A stretch of DNA of 52,716 bases from Halorubrum distributum JCM 10118. Its GTDB lineage: Archaea > Halobacteriota > Halobacteria > Halobacteriales > Haloferacaceae. The notes under the pieces were generated by a model that was given only the letters and a program-made list of their open reading frames with translations, ran no database searches and had not been told where the DNA came from. Positions 11,348 to 21,130 of this stretch are shown piece by piece (position 1 is the first letter of the stretch; each line of letters begins with the position of its first letter). The DNA lies in the NCBI RefSeq assembly GCF_000337335.1, contig NZ_AOJN01000053.1:1-52716 (forward strand). Reading direction: 5' to 3'. The position numbers and the translations under genes are program-made.

Positions 11348-11557
11348 TTACTGGCCGACCGTGAGGCGATTTGGGTAAGTTTGTTCACCGAAACGAGGGC
11401 AGACGGCCGTGAGCACGAACGAGGTGTCTTTAGCCGCGGATTCGATAACGGGGTGGGCGATCACCCGGCGGCTGATAGCGACGGGGTTGCTGTCTGTGAG
11501 CGCCCCCGAAACTGAGAAGGCCTGAGTCCCACACGTGAGCATTGGGGAGAACGTCAT
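11348..11557 (-). pseudogene. Possible gene fragment, unknown
   Basis: A 69-residue frame starting MTFSPMLTC and ending NRLTVGQ, with fairly high GC at third positions. It could be a remnant of a gene cut off by the neighbouring insertion sequence. It has no recognisable domain and no promoter was seen. A non-coding interpretation is equally plausible. Confidence 0.2.
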
Positions 11558-11589
11558 ATCATTGGTCGAGAACGGCAGACGTGTCCCTG

Positions 11590-13266
11590 ATGGCACCGAC
11601 TGCCGTCTCTCGACGCGATGTCTTCCGTTCGATAGCGACAACACAGCATCTCGATTGGCCGGCCTACGACTCGACACCACTGTACGACCAGAGTTCACTG
11701 ACGGCGCTCACGGAGGATTTCCGGACTGTCTCGGGAATCTGGTTCGAGCACGACGCCCACGATTCGGTCGAGGGATTCGTCTGTCAGTATCCACTGTCCT
11801 ACGTGGATTTCAGTCCCCACGACCAGTACTCCGGTCTGACTCGATACGAGATGCCACAGCTCTTCAGGGCATTCCTGCTGAAAGAGATACATGGCTGGAG
11901 CCACGAAACGGCGCTTGTCGAGTATCTCCACCAGCGCTCAGGACCCCGTCGCTCGCTCGGGTTCGACTCCGTCCCCGATCAGTCGACACTCTGGCGCAGT
12001 TGGAACAAGCGCTTCAGTGCCGACCTCCGTGAGACAGTCGAGAGAACGGCTCAGACGATTCTCATCAACGCACAGAATGCCGGTGTTACGGTGCCTCGTG
12101 ACCCAGAACGGAAGCTCCAGTACCATAATGACGAGTCTGAGGCGACCGATCCGGACGACCAGACTGTTTTGGAAGAAGCAGCGAAGATAAGCAATCACGT
12201 CAGCCGTGTCGTCTTCCCGGCATTCTCCTTGGACCGTGGCGAGGGCTGTGAGATCCACGAGAACGCCTACTGGGGCCTGCAGACATATCTCGGACTTCGC
12301 GAGCGGCTGGCTGCGAACGAAGGTGCTCGTAGTTTCCTCTACGAGTCGACTCGGGATCGGACACCGCTGGGGCACGCCCATCGCGAGCAAGTTCGTGACC
12401 TCTCTATCGCGGAGATCAGGGAGATGTACCGGCAGGCCATCACTCGGCTCCTGAACGAAGTTGTGGAGACAGAGGAGTTCTTTCGAGCGGGGATCGTCGC
12501 CATCGATATTACCGAAGCTGACCCGTTCACGGGCGATAGAACGGGCTACGAAGACGAGATTATCGGCACGAAGGAGAAGACCGACGAATACGCCTACCAG
12601 TGGGCGACGGTGCAGTTGGTCGGGAATGCCGTCCCGATTGTGCTGGACGCGCGCCCCGTCCGGAAGGGGGAGACACGACTGGAAATCGTCGAGGATTTGC
12701 TTGATTCGGCTGAGGGCCTCGTTCACGTCGATAACGTCTTGATGGACCGGGAGTTCGATAGCCAGCACGTCCTGGAGATGCTCAGCCAGCGCGGGCTTTC
12801 CTATGTCGTTCCCAAGCGGATGCAGACCAGCGAGAAAGCCCAGGCCAAGCGGTTGCTCCAACGGGGTCAGGACCGCTACGAGACCGACCGGAAGCTCCAT
12901 CTCGGGAAGAACGAATGGCACGAGACGACGCTGATCTACCGTCGGAAAGAGGACTCCGAGCACGACGACTATCGACAGTATTCGGTGTTCATGACGAATG
13001 GCGGGAGTGGGCACCTCACGGAGTACGGGTATCGGTGGGAGATTGAGAGCGGCTACAGGTCGATAAAGCGATTCATGGCGGCGACGACATCCAAGGATTT
13101 CGGGCTACGGTTCTTCTACTTCGCATTCGCCTGCCTGTTGTACTCGATCTGGCGGGCTGTCGATCTGCTCGTGCAGGTTGAGTTGACTGGTGAGTACGAA
13201 CATTCACCGATCGTAACAGCCGACAACACGCTGACGCTGCTGAAGAAGGAGACTGGAATTGGGTAG
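11590..13266 (+). CDS. IS4-family-type DDE transposase
   Basis: 558 residues. The IS4 hallmark Y(2)R(3)E(6)K is perfect in YGYRWEIESGYRSIK (E about residue 486). The other two catalytic acids are likely in VAIDITEADP (about residue 305) and VLMDREFDS (about 386), giving a full DDE triad, so the enzyme looks intact. The C-terminus (LRFFYFAFACLLYSIWRAVDLL) matches the related transposase at 19426-21051, placing both in one haloarchaeal subgroup. It cuts and joins the ends of its own element. I chose ATG 11590 (MAPTAVSRR); GTG 11581 and TTG 11542 are in-frame alternatives. Element ends were not identified. Confidence 0.85.
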   Translation: MAPTAVSRRDVFRSIATTQHLDWPAYDSTPLYDQSSLTALTEDFRTVSGIWFEHDAHDSVEGFVCQYPLSYVDFSPHDQYSGLTRYEMPQLFRAFLLKEIHGWSHETALVEYLHQRSGPRRSLGFDSVPDQSTLWRSWNKRFSADLRETVERTAQTILINAQNAGVTVPRDPERKLQYHNDESEATDPDDQTVLEEAAKISNHVSRVVFPAFSLDRGEGCEIHENAYWGLQTYLGLRERLAANEGARSFLYESTRDRTPLGHAHREQVRDLSIAEIREMYRQAITRLLNEVVETEEFFRAGIVAIDITEADPFTGDRTGYEDEIIGTKEKTDEYAYQWATVQLVGNAVPIVLDARPVRKGETRLEIVEDLLDSAEGLVHVDNVLMDREFDSQHVLEMLSQRGLSYVVPKRMQTSEKAQAKRLLQRGQDRYETDRKLHLGKNEWHETTLIYRRKEDSEHDDYRQYSVFMTNGGSGHLTEYGYRWEIESGYRSIKRFMAATTSKDFGLRFFYFAFACLLYSIWRAVDLLVQVELTGEYEHSPIVTADNTLTLLKKETGIG

Positions 13267-16303: not shown

Positions 16304-16410
16304 ATCGACGATTTTCGACGAGATACGGCCGACGTGAAACGGCGCCGTCGGCCTCGATCAAGCCGGTTCAAAACGCAACCCGTTTTACGCGCGCGGCCGC
16401 AGATTGGTCA

Positions 16411-17316
16411 ATGACTGATCCGGTTCCGGTCGCCGTCCCTCGCAAGGGTCGCCCGCTCGAAGCGGTCTTAGAGCGGATCGCGGCCGTCGCAAGCGACGAA
16501 CGTCTCGACCGGCTCGCGGACAGCGTGAGCAACACGCTCCGATACGAGAAGGCCGTCACGAAGGGGTCGGTCGACGCCGAGGCGGGCCCCTACGACCGGC
16601 TCGCCGAGTACTCGGACCCGACGACGACGGCAGAGCCGGAGTTCACGCTGATGCGCGACGACCGGAACGGGAAGCCGCGACGGATCGTCTTCGACGCCGC
16701 GACGGTCGATCTGGGCGACGTGACGGTCAAGCTCGTCGGTCGCGAGGAGCCGTTTCGCGCGCTTCGAACCCACGAGTTCGGGCTCGGATTCGACTCCGCC
16801 GACCTCGTCTTAGAAGAGGTGGTCGGGATTCGAGACACCGGGCTCGGCAACATCTCGGACATCAACGACCGGATCGACCCGGTCGACACCGACGTGCGCG
16901 TCGTGACCGGGCTCGGAGACACGGTGTACCACACCCTGATGGGCCGCGAGGACCGGCGGGCACCGAACACGACGTTCGACCGCGCGTACCTCGCCGACTA
17001 CGAGGGGCCGCTGTGTATTTCCCCGCGATACGAGCGGTTGGTCACCGCGGTGTTGGGTACCGACGCGCTCGACGGGGTCGAGTTCGTCTATCCCGCCGCG
17101 GACGAGGAGGAGGAGGCCGCGATCGCCCGGGTCGGCCTCGGCGTGTACCTCACGGTTACCGGCTCCACGGCGCGCGAGCACGGCCTCTCCGTCGGCGAAC
17201 ACCTCTTCCCCAGCGAGACGGTCCTGATGCGTAACGCGGCCGAGACGGACGATTCCGTCTCTCGCGTCCTCCGGGCGCTCGATCGCGAAACGACCGACTC
17301 CGAGATCCGCGTGTGA
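16411..17316 (+). CDS. HisG-like (ATP phosphoribosyltransferase-related) protein
   Basis: 301 residues. The N-terminus VAVPRKGRPLEAVLERI recalls the HisG start (a P-K/R-K-GRL-E-L pattern), and the C-terminal part aligns by eye with HisG: CISPRYERLV against the ATKYPRLTR region, and TVTGSTAREHGLSVGEHLFPS against the STGRTLRENGL..EEIFPS region that binds the phosphoribosyl group. Between them are GFDSADLVLEEVVGIRDTG and GDTVYHTLMG. This suggests a bilobal periplasmic-binding-like fold related to ATP phosphoribosyltransferase, but the spacing is divergent and histidine genes are not nearby. It may be a paralogue with another substrate. ATG 16411 matches the family N-terminus. Function uncertain; gene certain. 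Confidence 0.6.
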   Translation: MTDPVPVAVPRKGRPLEAVLERIAAVASDERLDRLADSVSNTLRYEKAVTKGSVDAEAGPYDRLAEYSDPTTTAEPEFTLMRDDRNGKPRRIVFDAATVDLGDVTVKLVGREEPFRALRTHEFGLGFDSADLVLEEVVGIRDTGLGNISDINDRIDPVDTDVRVVTGLGDTVYHTLMGREDRRAPNTTFDRAYLADYEGPLCISPRYERLVTAVLGTDALDGVEFVYPAADEEEEAAIARVGLGVYLTVTGSTAREHGLSVGEHLFPSETVLMRNAAETDDSVSRVLRALDRETTDSEIRV

Positions 17317-17733
17317 CTCCGCGTATCGTATAGCGGCATAGAATATACGTGTGCGAGTCAGGCCGAATTCTTCCCTCGATTCGGAGCCACAATACGACAC
17401 GAGTCGCGGTGCCCGACCGAGAGCCCCTCAAACGATCTGTTCCGAGTCGTCGTCGGACGACGAGAACAACCAGGGCCGTACTCCGGCCACAGGTGGTGGG
17501 CACCGGGCTTCGCGACGATCCAGCCGCGTCTCCCGGGAGGAATCTCGGCGGGCGATGGTTTCCTAAAATATATCCGGATATCTGTACCCTAAATCCACTG
17601 CGGATAGTGTTATAAATACGGATAAGTATTCCGCAGCGCGGAAAATAGAGTACCACTTACCGAGATAAGGTCACTTATCCGTAAATCTGGGATAGATTGA
17701 AGTCGCGGCCGTGAGAACCGTCGTCCGAGAGCT
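17317..17733. other. Intergenic region upstream of RHH/recombinase operon
   Basis: 417 nt with no credible gene. The right half is strikingly AT-rich and carries the GGATA-box cluster listed separately. The left half has mixed composition with CGTATAGCGGCATAGAATAT just after the HisG-like gene, and nothing else recognised. Confidence 0.4.
17570..17695. promoter_or_regulatory. GGATA-box cluster with nested inverted repeats
   Basis: Within 126 nt there are: a perfect palindrome ATATCCGGATAT (17570-17581); GGATAG (17602-17607); TATAAATA (17611-17618), a good TATA box; TACGGATAAGT (17617-17627) perfectly inverted at ACTTATCCGTA (17673-17683); TTCCGC-AGC-GCGGAA (17629-17643) nested between them; CTTACC and GATAAGG (17656-17670); and GGATAG (17690-17695). 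Seven GGATA-like boxes in both orientations suggest an iteron-like protein-binding array, as in an autoregulated operator, a recombination site or an origin. It precedes a ribbon-helix-helix protein and a tyrosine recombinase, either of which could bind it. Confidence 0.55.
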
Positions 17734-18114
17734 ATGGGAGGCGATCGACAGTCGGTGAAGACGTACGTGCCGACGGAACAGAAGGACGTCTGGCGCGACC
17801 ACGCCGACGAGCTCGACATGTCGTTGAGCGAGTTCGTCAGGACGATGGTACAGGCCGGACGCAGAGGCTTCGCGCCGGACGACACCGGCGACAGCGAGGA
17901 AGCCGCTTCCGAGGGCGCTGACCCCGGGGGTCACGACCTCGAAAGGGGCGTCCGGGCGGCTCTCGAATCGGGACCCCGTTCGTGGGACGAACTCGTCGAG
18001 GCCGTGGTCGGCGACGTGGAGGACGAACTGGAGGCGACGCTCGACGAGCTCCAGGAGCGCAACCGCGTTCGGTACAGCGGCCGGGAAGGAGGGTACGTGT
18101 TGACCGATGAGTAG
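17734..18114 (+). CDS. Ribbon-helix-helix DNA-binding protein upstream of recombinase
   Basis: 126 residues. The N-terminal third (KTYVPTEQKDVWRDHADELDM then SLSEFVRTMVQAGRRGF) has the strand-helix-helix pattern of RHH/CopG-like proteins. After an acidic linker, residues 75-126 (WDELVEAVVGDVEDEL, ATLDELQERNRVRY, GGYVLTDE) resemble a small winged helix. So it probably binds DNA with one or both domains. Its stop lies inside ATGAGTAG, which holds the ATG of the recombinase gene, so the two are co-translated. I recall this pair being frequent in Halobacteria with the first protein named DUF5805, which I cannot check here. It may bind the repeat cluster just upstream. Confidence 0.75.
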   Translation: MGGDRQSVKTYVPTEQKDVWRDHADELDMSLSEFVRTMVQAGRRGFAPDDTGDSEEAASEGADPGGHDLERGVRAALESGPRSWDELVEAVVGDVEDELEATLDELQERNRVRYSGREGGYVLTDE

Positions 18115-19138
18115 CGCGCGCGCCGACCCCGACCCCGACGACCCGGTCGGGTACTTCCTCGAGGACCTCACCTATCACGGGAAGACCGACCGGACCAGAG
18201 AGGCGTACGAACGCGTCCTCCGGCGGTTCGAGGAGTTCCTCGATGCTACGGACCCGAAGGCGGCGACGCACCGCGACTGTATGTCGTTCGTGCACTCGCT
18301 GCGGGGGGACGTCACCGACAGCACGGTCGCGACGTACGCGGCGTACCTCCACCGGTTCTACGGGTACATGACGGAGGTTGGCGCCTTCGACGGCAATCCG
18401 ATGACGCTGGTGATGGAGGAGATGGACGAGACCGTCGACAAGGACCCGGCGCGTCGCGACGTCTCGATCCCGGCGATGCGGTCGTTCGTCGCCGGGATCC
18501 GCCACCCGCTCCATCGCGCGGTCGTGGTCACCCTCCTGAAGACCGGAATGCGGGTCGGCGAGCTGTGTAACCTCGATCTACGAGACCTGGCGGTCACCGA
18601 TCCGGACCTCGAAGCGGCGTACTCGCTCGGGGGCCGGCCGGCGCTGTCCGAGCGGCCGGACTCGATATTCGTGACCGCCGAGGCGACCGTCGGCGAGGAG
18701 CTGAACGGGGAGGTTCGAACGGCCGCGAACAAGCGGAAGCGCGGGACCGTGATCCCGGTCGACGACGAGCTCCGTCGGACGCTGAAGGCGTGGCTCGCCG
18801 TTCGGCCGGATTCGCCGTCGCCCGCGGAGCCGCTGTTCGTCGGTACTGCGGAAGGGTGGGGCGAGCGGCTCCGACCAGAGGCTGTCAGACACGTCGTTGA
18901 GCGCCACGCCCGCGAGGAGGGGTGGTATCGGACCGGCGGCGGCGCCGACGAGAACGTCACGCCCCACTACTTCCGACACTTCTTCACGACGCACCTCCGG
19001 GACCGGACGGGCGACCGCGGCGTGGTGAAGTACCTCCGCGGCGACGTCGCCGACGACGTGATCGACACCTACACCCACAACTGGGGGGATCAGGTGCGAG
19101 AGGTTTACGAGGCGAACGTATACCGGCTTTTCCCGTGA
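18107..19138 (+). CDS. Tyrosine recombinase (XerC/D-like integrase)
   Basis: 343 residues. The N-terminal SAM-like core-binding domain spans about 15-100 (YFLEDLTYHGKTDRTREAYE). The catalytic domain has Arg149 (KTGMRVGEL), His287-x-x-Arg290 (PHYFRH) and the nucleophile Tyr322 in DTYTH. The usual LGH box reads LRG, so the conserved second His/Trp is missing at its normal place. The family cuts and rejoins DNA at paired inverted repeats, in phage integration or dimer resolution. Translation is coupled to the RHH gene. No tRNA, phage or plasmid genes lie nearby, which favours a resident chromosomal recombinase, but its target is unknown. Confidence 0.85.
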   Translation: MSSARADPDPDDPVGYFLEDLTYHGKTDRTREAYERVLRRFEEFLDATDPKAATHRDCMSFVHSLRGDVTDSTVATYAAYLHRFYGYMTEVGAFDGNPMTLVMEEMDETVDKDPARRDVSIPAMRSFVAGIRHPLHRAVVVTLLKTGMRVGELCNLDLRDLAVTDPDLEAAYSLGGRPALSERPDSIFVTAEATVGEELNGEVRTAANKRKRGTVIPVDDELRRTLKAWLAVRPDSPSPAEPLFVGTAEGWGERLRPEAVRHVVERHAREEGWYRTGGGADENVTPHYFRHFFTTHLRDRTGDRGVVKYLRGDVADDVIDTYTHNWGDQVREVYEANVYRLFP

Positions 19139-19344: not shown

Positions 19345-21130
19345 AGCGTTCAAAATTGCGTAGATTCTGGCGCTCCTGATTAGGGTTGTCACTCCCAAAC
19401 GGCGGACTCAGGGGGGATCAGCCGGTTAGTCATGTGGAATCAACGACGAGGCAACGAGTTCAACACACTCACCCGCAGTCAACACGGGTGCGTAGTCCAT
19501 CTCACCTCCCACGCCCGCTTTCAGCAAGAAGTCGGTGAGCCGCCAGATATTGTACAAAAGGACCGCGAATACGAAGTAGAACAATCGAACGCGGTAGTCT
19601 TTCGAGGAGGTCTTGGCGAGAAAGTCACCTTTGATCGATTTGTACTCACTCTCGATCTGCCACCGGCGGCTGTAGCGCTGACAGAACGACTCGGCCTCCT
19701 CGGGATCGACTCGGAGATTCGTCGCGAAGACCGCCGTACCATCGCCACTCGTTGAGGGAACATACAGGAGACGCATTGGATGCGATCCAGATTCCACATG
19801 GACAGAGGCCGACTCCACAGCGACTTCCTGGTCGTCTTTGTCCATTTGGTCAAGCACCTCCCGTTCGGAGCTGGAGACCCGCTTCGGAATGAGGTAGTTC
19901 ACATCGAGGTTTGAGAGCGTCTGGAACACTTGTATCGAGTCAAACTCTCGATCACACAGCACTGTCTCGATTGGAACGTGCTCTTTTGCTCGTCGAACGA
20001 GCCGTCGCACAGTACGATGGATCTGATTCGACGGGTTCTCATCCCACTCAGAGCTCTCTCGAACCGGTTCCACGGCGAGAACGAGCGGGATATTCTGTCC
20101 AATGATCGAGAGTGTTGCGAATTTGAACGCTCGACCGTCTCTGTCCTTGGTCCCGCTGACCATCGGCATCTCTTCGACCTCTCCGTAGTAGGGAATAGTC
20201 GTGATGTCGATCGCGGCTGTGACTGGACGCCGGAACGATGCTTTAGAGGCGATCACCGAGAGTAAGCGATCCGTCGTTTTGTTGAATCCCCTCACGAGTT
20301 CTTCGGGGCCAAATTGTTTGACTGCGCGGAGGTGGGTATCACCATGCGGTCCGTACTCTTTCCCGCGCCGATATTGGAAGCGAGTCGCTCCCTGCGAGGT
20401 GCCACAGCGGACCATCCCCATGAACGTCTGTAACTCGAAAAATTGCGTGTCCTCGTACGAGGCGTTCGACGCCCGACCAGAGTCGAAGTGTCCATAGGCG
20501 TGATCACGCGCGAGGCGCGTCGTCTGGATAATCTTCTCCTGTGAGAAGGATTCGTCTTCGACTGGATCTGTATCTTCTCGCGTGTCGTCGACGATCTCTG
20601 CCTTTGGCCGCACCTTCGGAGCTGAGATGTCGCGATCGTGGACTTCTTTAACAACGAAATGGGCAGCAGCGTGGACGTATTCGTGGGCTGCGTCGTCGAA
20701 TCGATTTCGCCACGCCCGCGAGAACGCTGATTCATCGGGTACTCGACTGAAGCCGAGGATAGTCGCTACTTCCGGTTGCCGGGTGAGTCGTCGAGAAAAC
20801 TCGGCGTACGAGTCACCCGTTATTTTCATGAACACAAATGAGAGGATTATCGCGCGAAAGGAGAGTGGCGCAGGATGCCACGCTGGATACCCGTCTTCGA
20901 TCGTGTCTATCGAGTGATCGAGGTTTTCGAACGCGGTGACGAGATCGGCTTTTTTGAGTTCGTTTCGGATAGTGATCCCCAGCTGGTACGCTTCGCACAG
21001 AGACTGCATGCGAGGACCATCTTTGAAAGGGGGGCTACCGGAACCACTCATTCAAGAAATGGTGGGGTCGATCGCAAAGTTACCACACCAACATGACTAC
21101 AAACATACTCTGTTCATCGTCAAAGGGATT
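19345..21130 (-). mobile_element. IS4-type insertion sequence, extent uncertain
   Basis: An insertion sequence is implied by the complete transposase. The limits given only allow for about 80 nt of flank on each side, in keeping with one-gene elements. I compared the two flanks by eye and saw no convincing terminal inverted repeat or target duplication. Confidence 0.3.
19426..21051 (-). CDS. IS4-family-type DDE transposase, second element
   Basis: 541 residues with the perfect Y(2)R(3)E(6)K signature of IS4 transposases (YSRRWQIESEYKSIK). The other acids are probably in AAIDITTIPYYG and VLCDREFDS. The triad is complete and the frame uninterrupted, so the enzyme may be active. Its C-terminus (VRLFYFVFAVLLYNIWRLTDFLLKAG) closely parallels that of the transposase at 11590-13266, while the N-termini differ: two divergent members of one group, not a recent duplication. 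An alternative start is ATG 21009 (MQSLCEAYQ). It lies between the recombinase and the arsenic cluster. Element ends were not found. Confidence 0.85.
   Translation of the reverse strand: MSGSGSPPFKDGPRMQSLCEAYQLGITIRNELKKADLVTAFENLDHSIDTIEDGYPAWHPAPLSFRAIILSFVFMKITGDSYAEFSRRLTRQPEVATILGFSRVPDESAFSRAWRNRFDDAAHEYVHAAAHFVVKEVHDRDISAPKVRPKAEIVDDTREDTDPVEDESFSQEKIIQTTRLARDHAYGHFDSGRASNASYEDTQFFELQTFMGMVRCGTSQGATRFQYRRGKEYGPHGDTHLRAVKQFGPEELVRGFNKTTDRLLSVIASKASFRRPVTAAIDITTIPYYGEVEEMPMVSGTKDRDGRAFKFATLSIIGQNIPLVLAVEPVRESSEWDENPSNQIHRTVRRLVRRAKEHVPIETVLCDREFDSIQVFQTLSNLDVNYLIPKRVSSSEREVLDQMDKDDQEVAVESASVHVESGSHPMRLLYVPSTSGDGTAVFATNLRVDPEEAESFCQRYSRRWQIESEYKSIKGDFLAKTSSKDYRVRLFYFVFAVLLYNIWRLTDFLLKAGVGGEMDYAPVLTAGECVELVASSLIPHD

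Follow-up and report, generated by a model that had tools for sequence, protein, structure and literature searches.

A four-unit array before a ribbon-helix-helix/recombinase operon as the probable site of recombination and control in an Xer system common to the class Halobacteria

Introduction

What is the function of a dense array of GGATA-like boxes which stands directly before an operon for a ribbon-helix-helix (RHH) protein and a tyrosine recombinase in a haloarchaeal chromosome? The array lies at 17570-17695 of the window analysed here, a stretch of 52,716 nucleotides from Halorubrum distributum JCM 10118. A preliminary description had called it iteron-like and had offered three roles for it, namely the operator of the gene pair, the site at which the recombinase acts, or a replication or partition site. 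Haloarchaea are model archaea and possess several replication origins. It has been stated to be unknown which of their many xer-like genes is responsible for resolving chromosome dimers and at what place dif lies, and in Haloferax volcanii 4 of 12 xerC/D-like genes, which may or may not include the orthologue described here, were deleted with viability kept (PMC7776575). Archaea are, furthermore, without FtsK (PMC8371274, PMC2958812), and a control internal to the recombination system would thus fill a known gap.

Results

Composition of the array

All of the elements of the GGATA array that had been listed beforehand were confirmed in the window. The interval contains six exact GGATA/TATCC pentamers (17571, 17576, 17602, 17620, 17676 and 17690), against 44 across the whole 52.7 kb, and as every other 126-nt stretch of the window has two at most, the cluster is far beyond chance and box density is therefore no general feature of AT-rich gaps. 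The boxes were also found to be conserved near homologous RHH-recombinase pairs, the comparison on which the original proposal could have failed. The 12-bp palindrome ATATCCGGATAT (17570-17581) coincides with the conserved unit A described below, and the perfect 11-bp inverted repeat (17617-17627 and 17673-17683, 45 nt apart) represents the arms of units B and D; the 6-3-6 hairpin TTCCGC-AGC-GCGGAA, which sits inside that repeat and had been marked together with these two elements, was not kept in relatives and was rejected as a functional element. The tightest and most conserved element, a dyad at 17664-17679, had been missed, as had a conserved GGGATAGATTGAAG downstream of it (17689-17702).

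A dif-like dyad at the core

The core dyad reads GATAA-GGTCAC-TTATC, two arms flanking an unpaired 6-bp spacer, and can also be read as GATAAG-GTCA-CTTATC. It was found upstream of the RHH-recombinase operon in nearly all genomes checked, and in the upstream sequences of about 200 loci an ATAA-N6-TTAT dyad stands shortly 5' of the RHH start and is followed by GGGATA..TTGAAG. The central spacer GGTCAC (17669-17674, with no strand assigned) is the proposed strand-exchange region. Across 179 sites, pairing at spacer positions 1-3 was 0.21, 0.21 and 0.45, that is, at chance or little above it, and pairing at the four positions outside the spacer was 1.00, 0.99, 0.95 and 0.84, values whose inner spacing is biased by selection since the dyad pattern was partly used in finding the sites, the longer arms of family f7 being less affected. 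In that family the core arms (CACAAATAA / TTATTTGTG) reach 9-10 bp, as in ATCACAAATAA-ATACCC-TTATTTGTGAA. Two inverted arms of about 11 bp around a centre of 6-8 bp characterize Xer/dif sites, and, judged from sequence, the pairing pattern of the core with its 6-bp centre is that of the dif plan.

The spacer varies freely, with 82 different spacers among the 179 sites. In Halorubrum it occurs in both orientations (GTGACC 20 times, GGTCAC 12 times) between unchanged flanks in close relatives; this was set aside as proof of recombination, since template switching at a palindrome yields the same result. An exact search of 113 genomes placed the dyad at the operon, with the remaining matches at about background number and with unrelated spacers, so that, as in Xer/dif systems, there is one site per chromosome. 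Where a genome had an exact GATAAN6TTATCC near the operon, no second copy with that spacer was found elsewhere in it, and second replicons mostly lacked the site. Loci that appeared to be site-less (in genera g85 and g8, among others) mostly had their site 200-300 bp further upstream or had been misread by the scan, and no clear site was found near the RHH start at locus L128 and in the f9 genomes. Neither a recombination product nor an insertion flanked by dif was observed.

Four units in a fixed geometry

The array consists of four copies of a unit of about 21 bp, each a recombinase arm plus a TAGTACTA-like RHH box, in the order A> B< C< D>, and alignment of all four places gave one shared unit, TTATCC.gaatt.TAG.acTa. 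Unit A, the outermost accessory unit (17570-17591, plus strand), has the arm ATATCCGGA at 17570-17578 and the RHH-type box TGTACCCTA at 17583-17591. In accessory unit B (17605-17625, minus strand) the arm TTATCCGTA runs leftwards from 17625, with GGATAA at 17620-17625, and the RHH-type box TATAACACTA occupies 17605-17614. Unit C, the left half of the core (17646-17668, minus strand), has the arm TTATCTCGG leftwards from 17668 and the RHH-type box TGGTACTCTA at 17646-17655. The right half, unit D (17675-17696, plus strand), has the arm TTATCCGTA at 17675-17683, matching the arm of unit B at nine of nine positions, and then TGGGATAGA in the box position at 17688-17696. Unit C is kept in all families, and its G..CTACA box, which lies 7-15 nt beyond the arm, is highly informative both in Halorubrum and in other genera; unit D is the most conserved stretch 5' of the operon among 124 well-scored sites. 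Directly after it, TTGAAG (17697-17702, plus strand) is conserved in position across genera and is possibly a transcription start region, with TTATCC serving as a TATA-like box.

An own-arm test was used to analyse the accessory units, in which the 9-bp arms of each genome were matched to its own upstream sequence and the arms of other genomes, in 40 permutations, served as controls. Own arms recurred upstream with a mean match of 7.12, compared with 6.69 for permuted arms (SD 0.054). Right-oriented copies peaked at -104 to -101 from the core centre (54 copies, against about 3 in most other bins), the modal exact offset of unit A being -102, while left-oriented copies peaked at -56 to -53 (60, against about 2 per bin), the modal offset of unit B being -55 in Halorubrum, in other genera and in f7 alike. 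Right-oriented bins at -128 and -60 held 22 copies each, largely from lineages with another spacing; unit A lies about 25 bp further out in a clade of 12 genomes (clade 1), and part of f7 is arranged otherwise.

The arm sequence itself changes between lineages. In most of the 10 f7 beta-type genomes, copies of TTATTTGTG form unit A at -103/-102 and unit B at -55, with 7-9 of 9 positions matching, and in genus g11, where the arm is TAAGATTG, most of the 5 genomes have AGATTG in both accessory units at equivalent offsets. When the arms change from TTATCC to TTATTTGTG or TAAGATTG, units A and B thus shift along with C and D and the offsets stay unchanged, and three unrelated arm sequences in one geometry argue for a single protein binding all four arms.

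Assignment of arms and boxes to the two proteins

On the recombinase tree, arms of the TCTTA/TAAGA type had two origins, one in genus g11 and one in the 12-genome clade. All 14 genomes with TAAGA/TAGGA arms, and none of the 155 others, have Glu at residue 33 of the recombinase (169 genomes in all). This Glu was gained in both arm-change lineages and nowhere else on the tree, a coupling that rests on two evolutionary events, and residue 33 was the sole residue of either protein to pass the convergence filter. It lies in helix 28-44, the second helix of the core-binding domain. We thus have a strong indication, from covariation, that the recombinase reads and binds the arms.

The boxes point to the other protein. 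AGTACTA was the top de novo 7-mer upstream in two disjoint sets, Halorubrum (20 occurrences, 1.05 expected) and the other genera (12, 0.85 expected), and the RHH-type boxes are conserved in the region of the gene's own probable promoter and vary with the RHH beta-strand. In g11, with changed arms, the RHH strand VKTYV is unchanged and a box-like sequence is retained, while in the 12-genome clade the strand reads VTARV, VTTRV or VRVxL and box-like sequence is at chance level. The box position of that clade reads TTGCATCA-like, which is a weaker point, as this motif was picked out visually from those very data. It is thus strongly suggested that the RHH protein reads and binds the boxes. A reading of the dyad by the RHH protein alone, which beta-strand changes in some genera had suggested, was rejected because g11 and the f7 beta-type changed their arms with the VKTYV strand unchanged, and because residue 33 fits one of the arm changes without exception.

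The RHH protein and the recombinase

The RHH gene (17734-18114, plus strand) and the recombinase gene (18107-19138, plus strand) share 8 nt. The former encodes 126 aa with a C-terminal winged-helix-like DUF5805 domain (PF19121, E=1.4e-27). Its structural model predicts an N-terminal stretch at 7-12, the expected RHH strand, helices at 14-26 and 31-44, and then two helices and a beta-hairpin; Foldseek gave weak matches, among them the RHH proteins VapB, Arc, CdbA and NikA, none under E 0.001. Among 197 genomes sampled from the phylum, only Halobacteria had DUF5805 above its cut-off, and the RHH gene stands immediately 5' of the recombinase gene at nearly all loci read.

The recombinase is an Xer-like tyrosine recombinase of 343 aa (PF00589) with SAM-like and catalytic domains. 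The catalytic residues R149, K209, H287, R290 and Y322 are invariant in 169 of 169 sequences, and the protein departs from the set R-K-H-R-[H/W]-Y at the H/W position only, where Asp313, also invariant in all 169, replaces the His or Trp of other family members; because of this replacement catalysis is not assured. The LGH box was indeed missing, as had been reported, and reads L-R-G-D throughout the family, class-wide. The nearest folds are those of the archaeal XerA proteins 4a8e and 5hxy (Pyrococcus and Thermoplasma). The recombinase scored 109.6 bits against the XerA equivalog NF040815, whose curated cut-off is 220, and is thus not a member; XerA above the NCBIfam cut-off was found in none of 59 Halobacteria. 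Of 116 relatives, 106 had an orthologue, among them all 92 good genomes; for the class Halobacteria the figures were 387 of 391 genomes, 376 of 377 good ones and 86 of 86 genera, almost always with one copy. As a near-universal and near-single-copy gene it is a core gene of Halobacteria and, as expected of Xer/dif, a chromosomal one. Taken on sequence grounds, the system most likely represents a variant form of Xer/dif that falls outside the XerA family.

Discussion

We consider it reasonably probable that the array serves for recombination and control in a haloarchaeal Xer system found throughout the class, in which a dif site and an accessory complex provide FtsK-free dimer resolution and autoregulation. 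Recombinase monomers would bind the four arms A, B, C and D, with RHH dimers occupying the box beside each arm. Units C and D, placed back to back with 6 bp between them, would form the dif-like core at which strands are exchanged, while the accessory half-sites A and B together with the RHH protein would wrap the DNA into a synaptic complex. Such a complex would allow two sites carried by a single dimeric chromosome to be resolved, substituting for control by FtsK. It may also repress its own operon, given that the core and the probable promoter overlap, and autorepression is likely; recombination at the core, dimer resolution and topological control are what the layout would imply. Strand exchange at the core is the simplest view because the catalytic residues are invariant and the arm pair has a freely varying 6-bp spacer. 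As the dif-like core and the half-sites both carry RHH boxes, a single structure probably serves as operator and as recombination site, so that two of the three roles proposed at the outset, operator and recombinase site, can be merged. A broader proposal we put forward tentatively, as somewhat short of an even chance: in all Halobacteria a self-contained module, a four-unit recombinase-RHH complex that senses two sites on one circle, might have replaced XerA and FtsK control, using a recombinase that has Asp where the catalytic His would stand.

The position of the array at a promoter is equally expected of a mere operator, and this counts against the combined recombination-and-control site. 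Also against it are the absence of recombination products from the results, the second replicons that mostly lack the site, Asp313, the viable Haloferax volcanii deletions should they include this orthologue, the two events behind the Glu33 coupling and the variable spacing of the units. Both proteins could autoregulate the operon through the four units while the recombinase acts elsewhere or has become a transcription factor; RHH proteins are often autoregulators, the core overlaps the probable promoter, and the array was found at that promoter and nowhere else. However, binding alone needs neither the exact 6-bp dif spacing kept by C and D nor a freely varying spacer, the catalytic residues are invariant across the class, and no other repeated candidate site with this arm was found, so we regard a purely regulatory array as rather unlikely. 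It is very unlikely that the array is the attachment site of an integrase or of a family of integrative mobile elements, with no part in housekeeping resolution. Contig C68 of this genome holds a distant RHH-recombinase pair that is preceded by a similar inverted repeat; this pair, two related copies on megaplasmids and the two modules side by side in some f7 genomes would fit such an origin, but the presence of the pair in essentially every halobacterial genome largely refutes it. There were, moreover, no matches in 50,697 phage records, and five IMG/VR pattern matches, considered as possible viral carriers of the site, were all in unrelated sequence and were judged to be chance; a prophage or mobile-element integrase or a phage relic was thus rejected.

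With its clustered repeats beside an RHH gene, the array resembles plasmid partition sites to which RHH proteins bind, and an iteron-bearing replication origin or centromere-like partition site was accordingly weighed. The term iteron-like could not be upheld, however. The units are not directly repeated but run > < < >, each with a recombinase arm whose sequence tracks the recombinase, no Orc/Cdc6, Rep or ParA gene or other initiator is encoded by the neighbouring ORFs, and the dyad occurs elsewhere only as background matches. We thus regard the third of the original roles, in replication or partition, as exceedingly improbable.

Among known systems, the proposed recombination-and-control site shares with TnpI/IRS of Tn4430 a tyrosine recombinase core with adjacent extra recombinase-binding motifs, which there restrict the reaction to resolution; TnpI, in contrast, resolves transposon cointegrates and lacks RHH boxes. 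Like archaeal XerA/dif of Pyrococcus abyssi and Thermoplasma acidophilum, it comprises a single chromosomal Xer-like recombinase, inverted arms and a 6-bp centre and has no FtsK (PMC2958812, PMC5357621), but it differs in the Asp in place of His/Trp, the RHH partner, the accessory half-sites and the location of the site at the system's own promoter. XerS/difSL of streptococci and lactococci also combines one recombinase with a site directly beside its gene, although difSL has an 11-bp centre, depends on FtsK and is without an RHH partner (PMC5357621). In cer/psi, an Xer core is joined to adjacent accessory DNA on which the host regulators ArgR or ArcA, with PepA, give directionality, and these accessory sequences restrict the reaction to resolution (PMC5357621). 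Extra sequences at a fixed distance from the core, as in cer/psi and IRS-type sites, are seen here in the fixed offsets of A and B and the phased boxes; unlike cer/psi, the haloarchaeal accessory DNA holds recombinase arms, the RHH partner is dedicated and the site is chromosomal. CdrS/CdrL, the haloarchaeal RHH regulators of ftsZ2, are likewise conserved RHH proteins, tied to the cell cycle, but are other proteins at another locus, and a recombinase is unmentioned there (PMC7439475).

One candidate gene pair and an exact site of about 130 bp can thus be named across Halobacteria, which makes the open question of dimer resolution directly testable. DUF5805 gains a likely role, and the system offers a possible answer to how the direction of Xer recombination is controlled in archaea that lack FtsK.

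Module evolution and neighbourhood

In some f7 genomes two modules stand side by side in divergent orientation, the older one with a cut RHH gene and a lost site. Two divergent recombinase copies at one locus were read at G168:C1:2260324-2263186, G338:C2:2155016-2157889 and G249:C1:1781735-1784598 (L259, L260 and L268), in all of which the older RHH gene is truncated at a shared GACCCTGGGGGTAAC motif; in G146 and G333 just fragments of the older recombinase are left. These arrangements imply that a whole module, together with its own arm sequence, can be replaced within one locus. A copy of the module, with its own site, is also present on two megaplasmids. The second pair of the present genome (G000:C68:6820-8183, minus strand; L002) consists of a distant RHH protein, with DUF5805 below its cut-off, and a recombinase of 38% identity. 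It is preceded by its own inverted repeat, ACCACTTCA..TGAAGTGGT, together with further GAAGTGG half-sites, and may be a mobile relative that shares the layout. In genus g85 (L097, L104, L090 and L092) about 200 bp of extra sequence lies between the site and the RHH gene; it holds a CCCTGGGGTTCGACC motif resembling one inside the RHH gene and may be a partial gene duplication.

Before the array, a 328-aa protein (window 16330-17316) had no Pfam or NCBIfam match, and its N-terminus presumably recalls HisG-like proteins. Two different IS4-type transposases (window 11542-13266 and 19426-21051, the second ISH3-like) border the GC-rich segment in which the operon lies.
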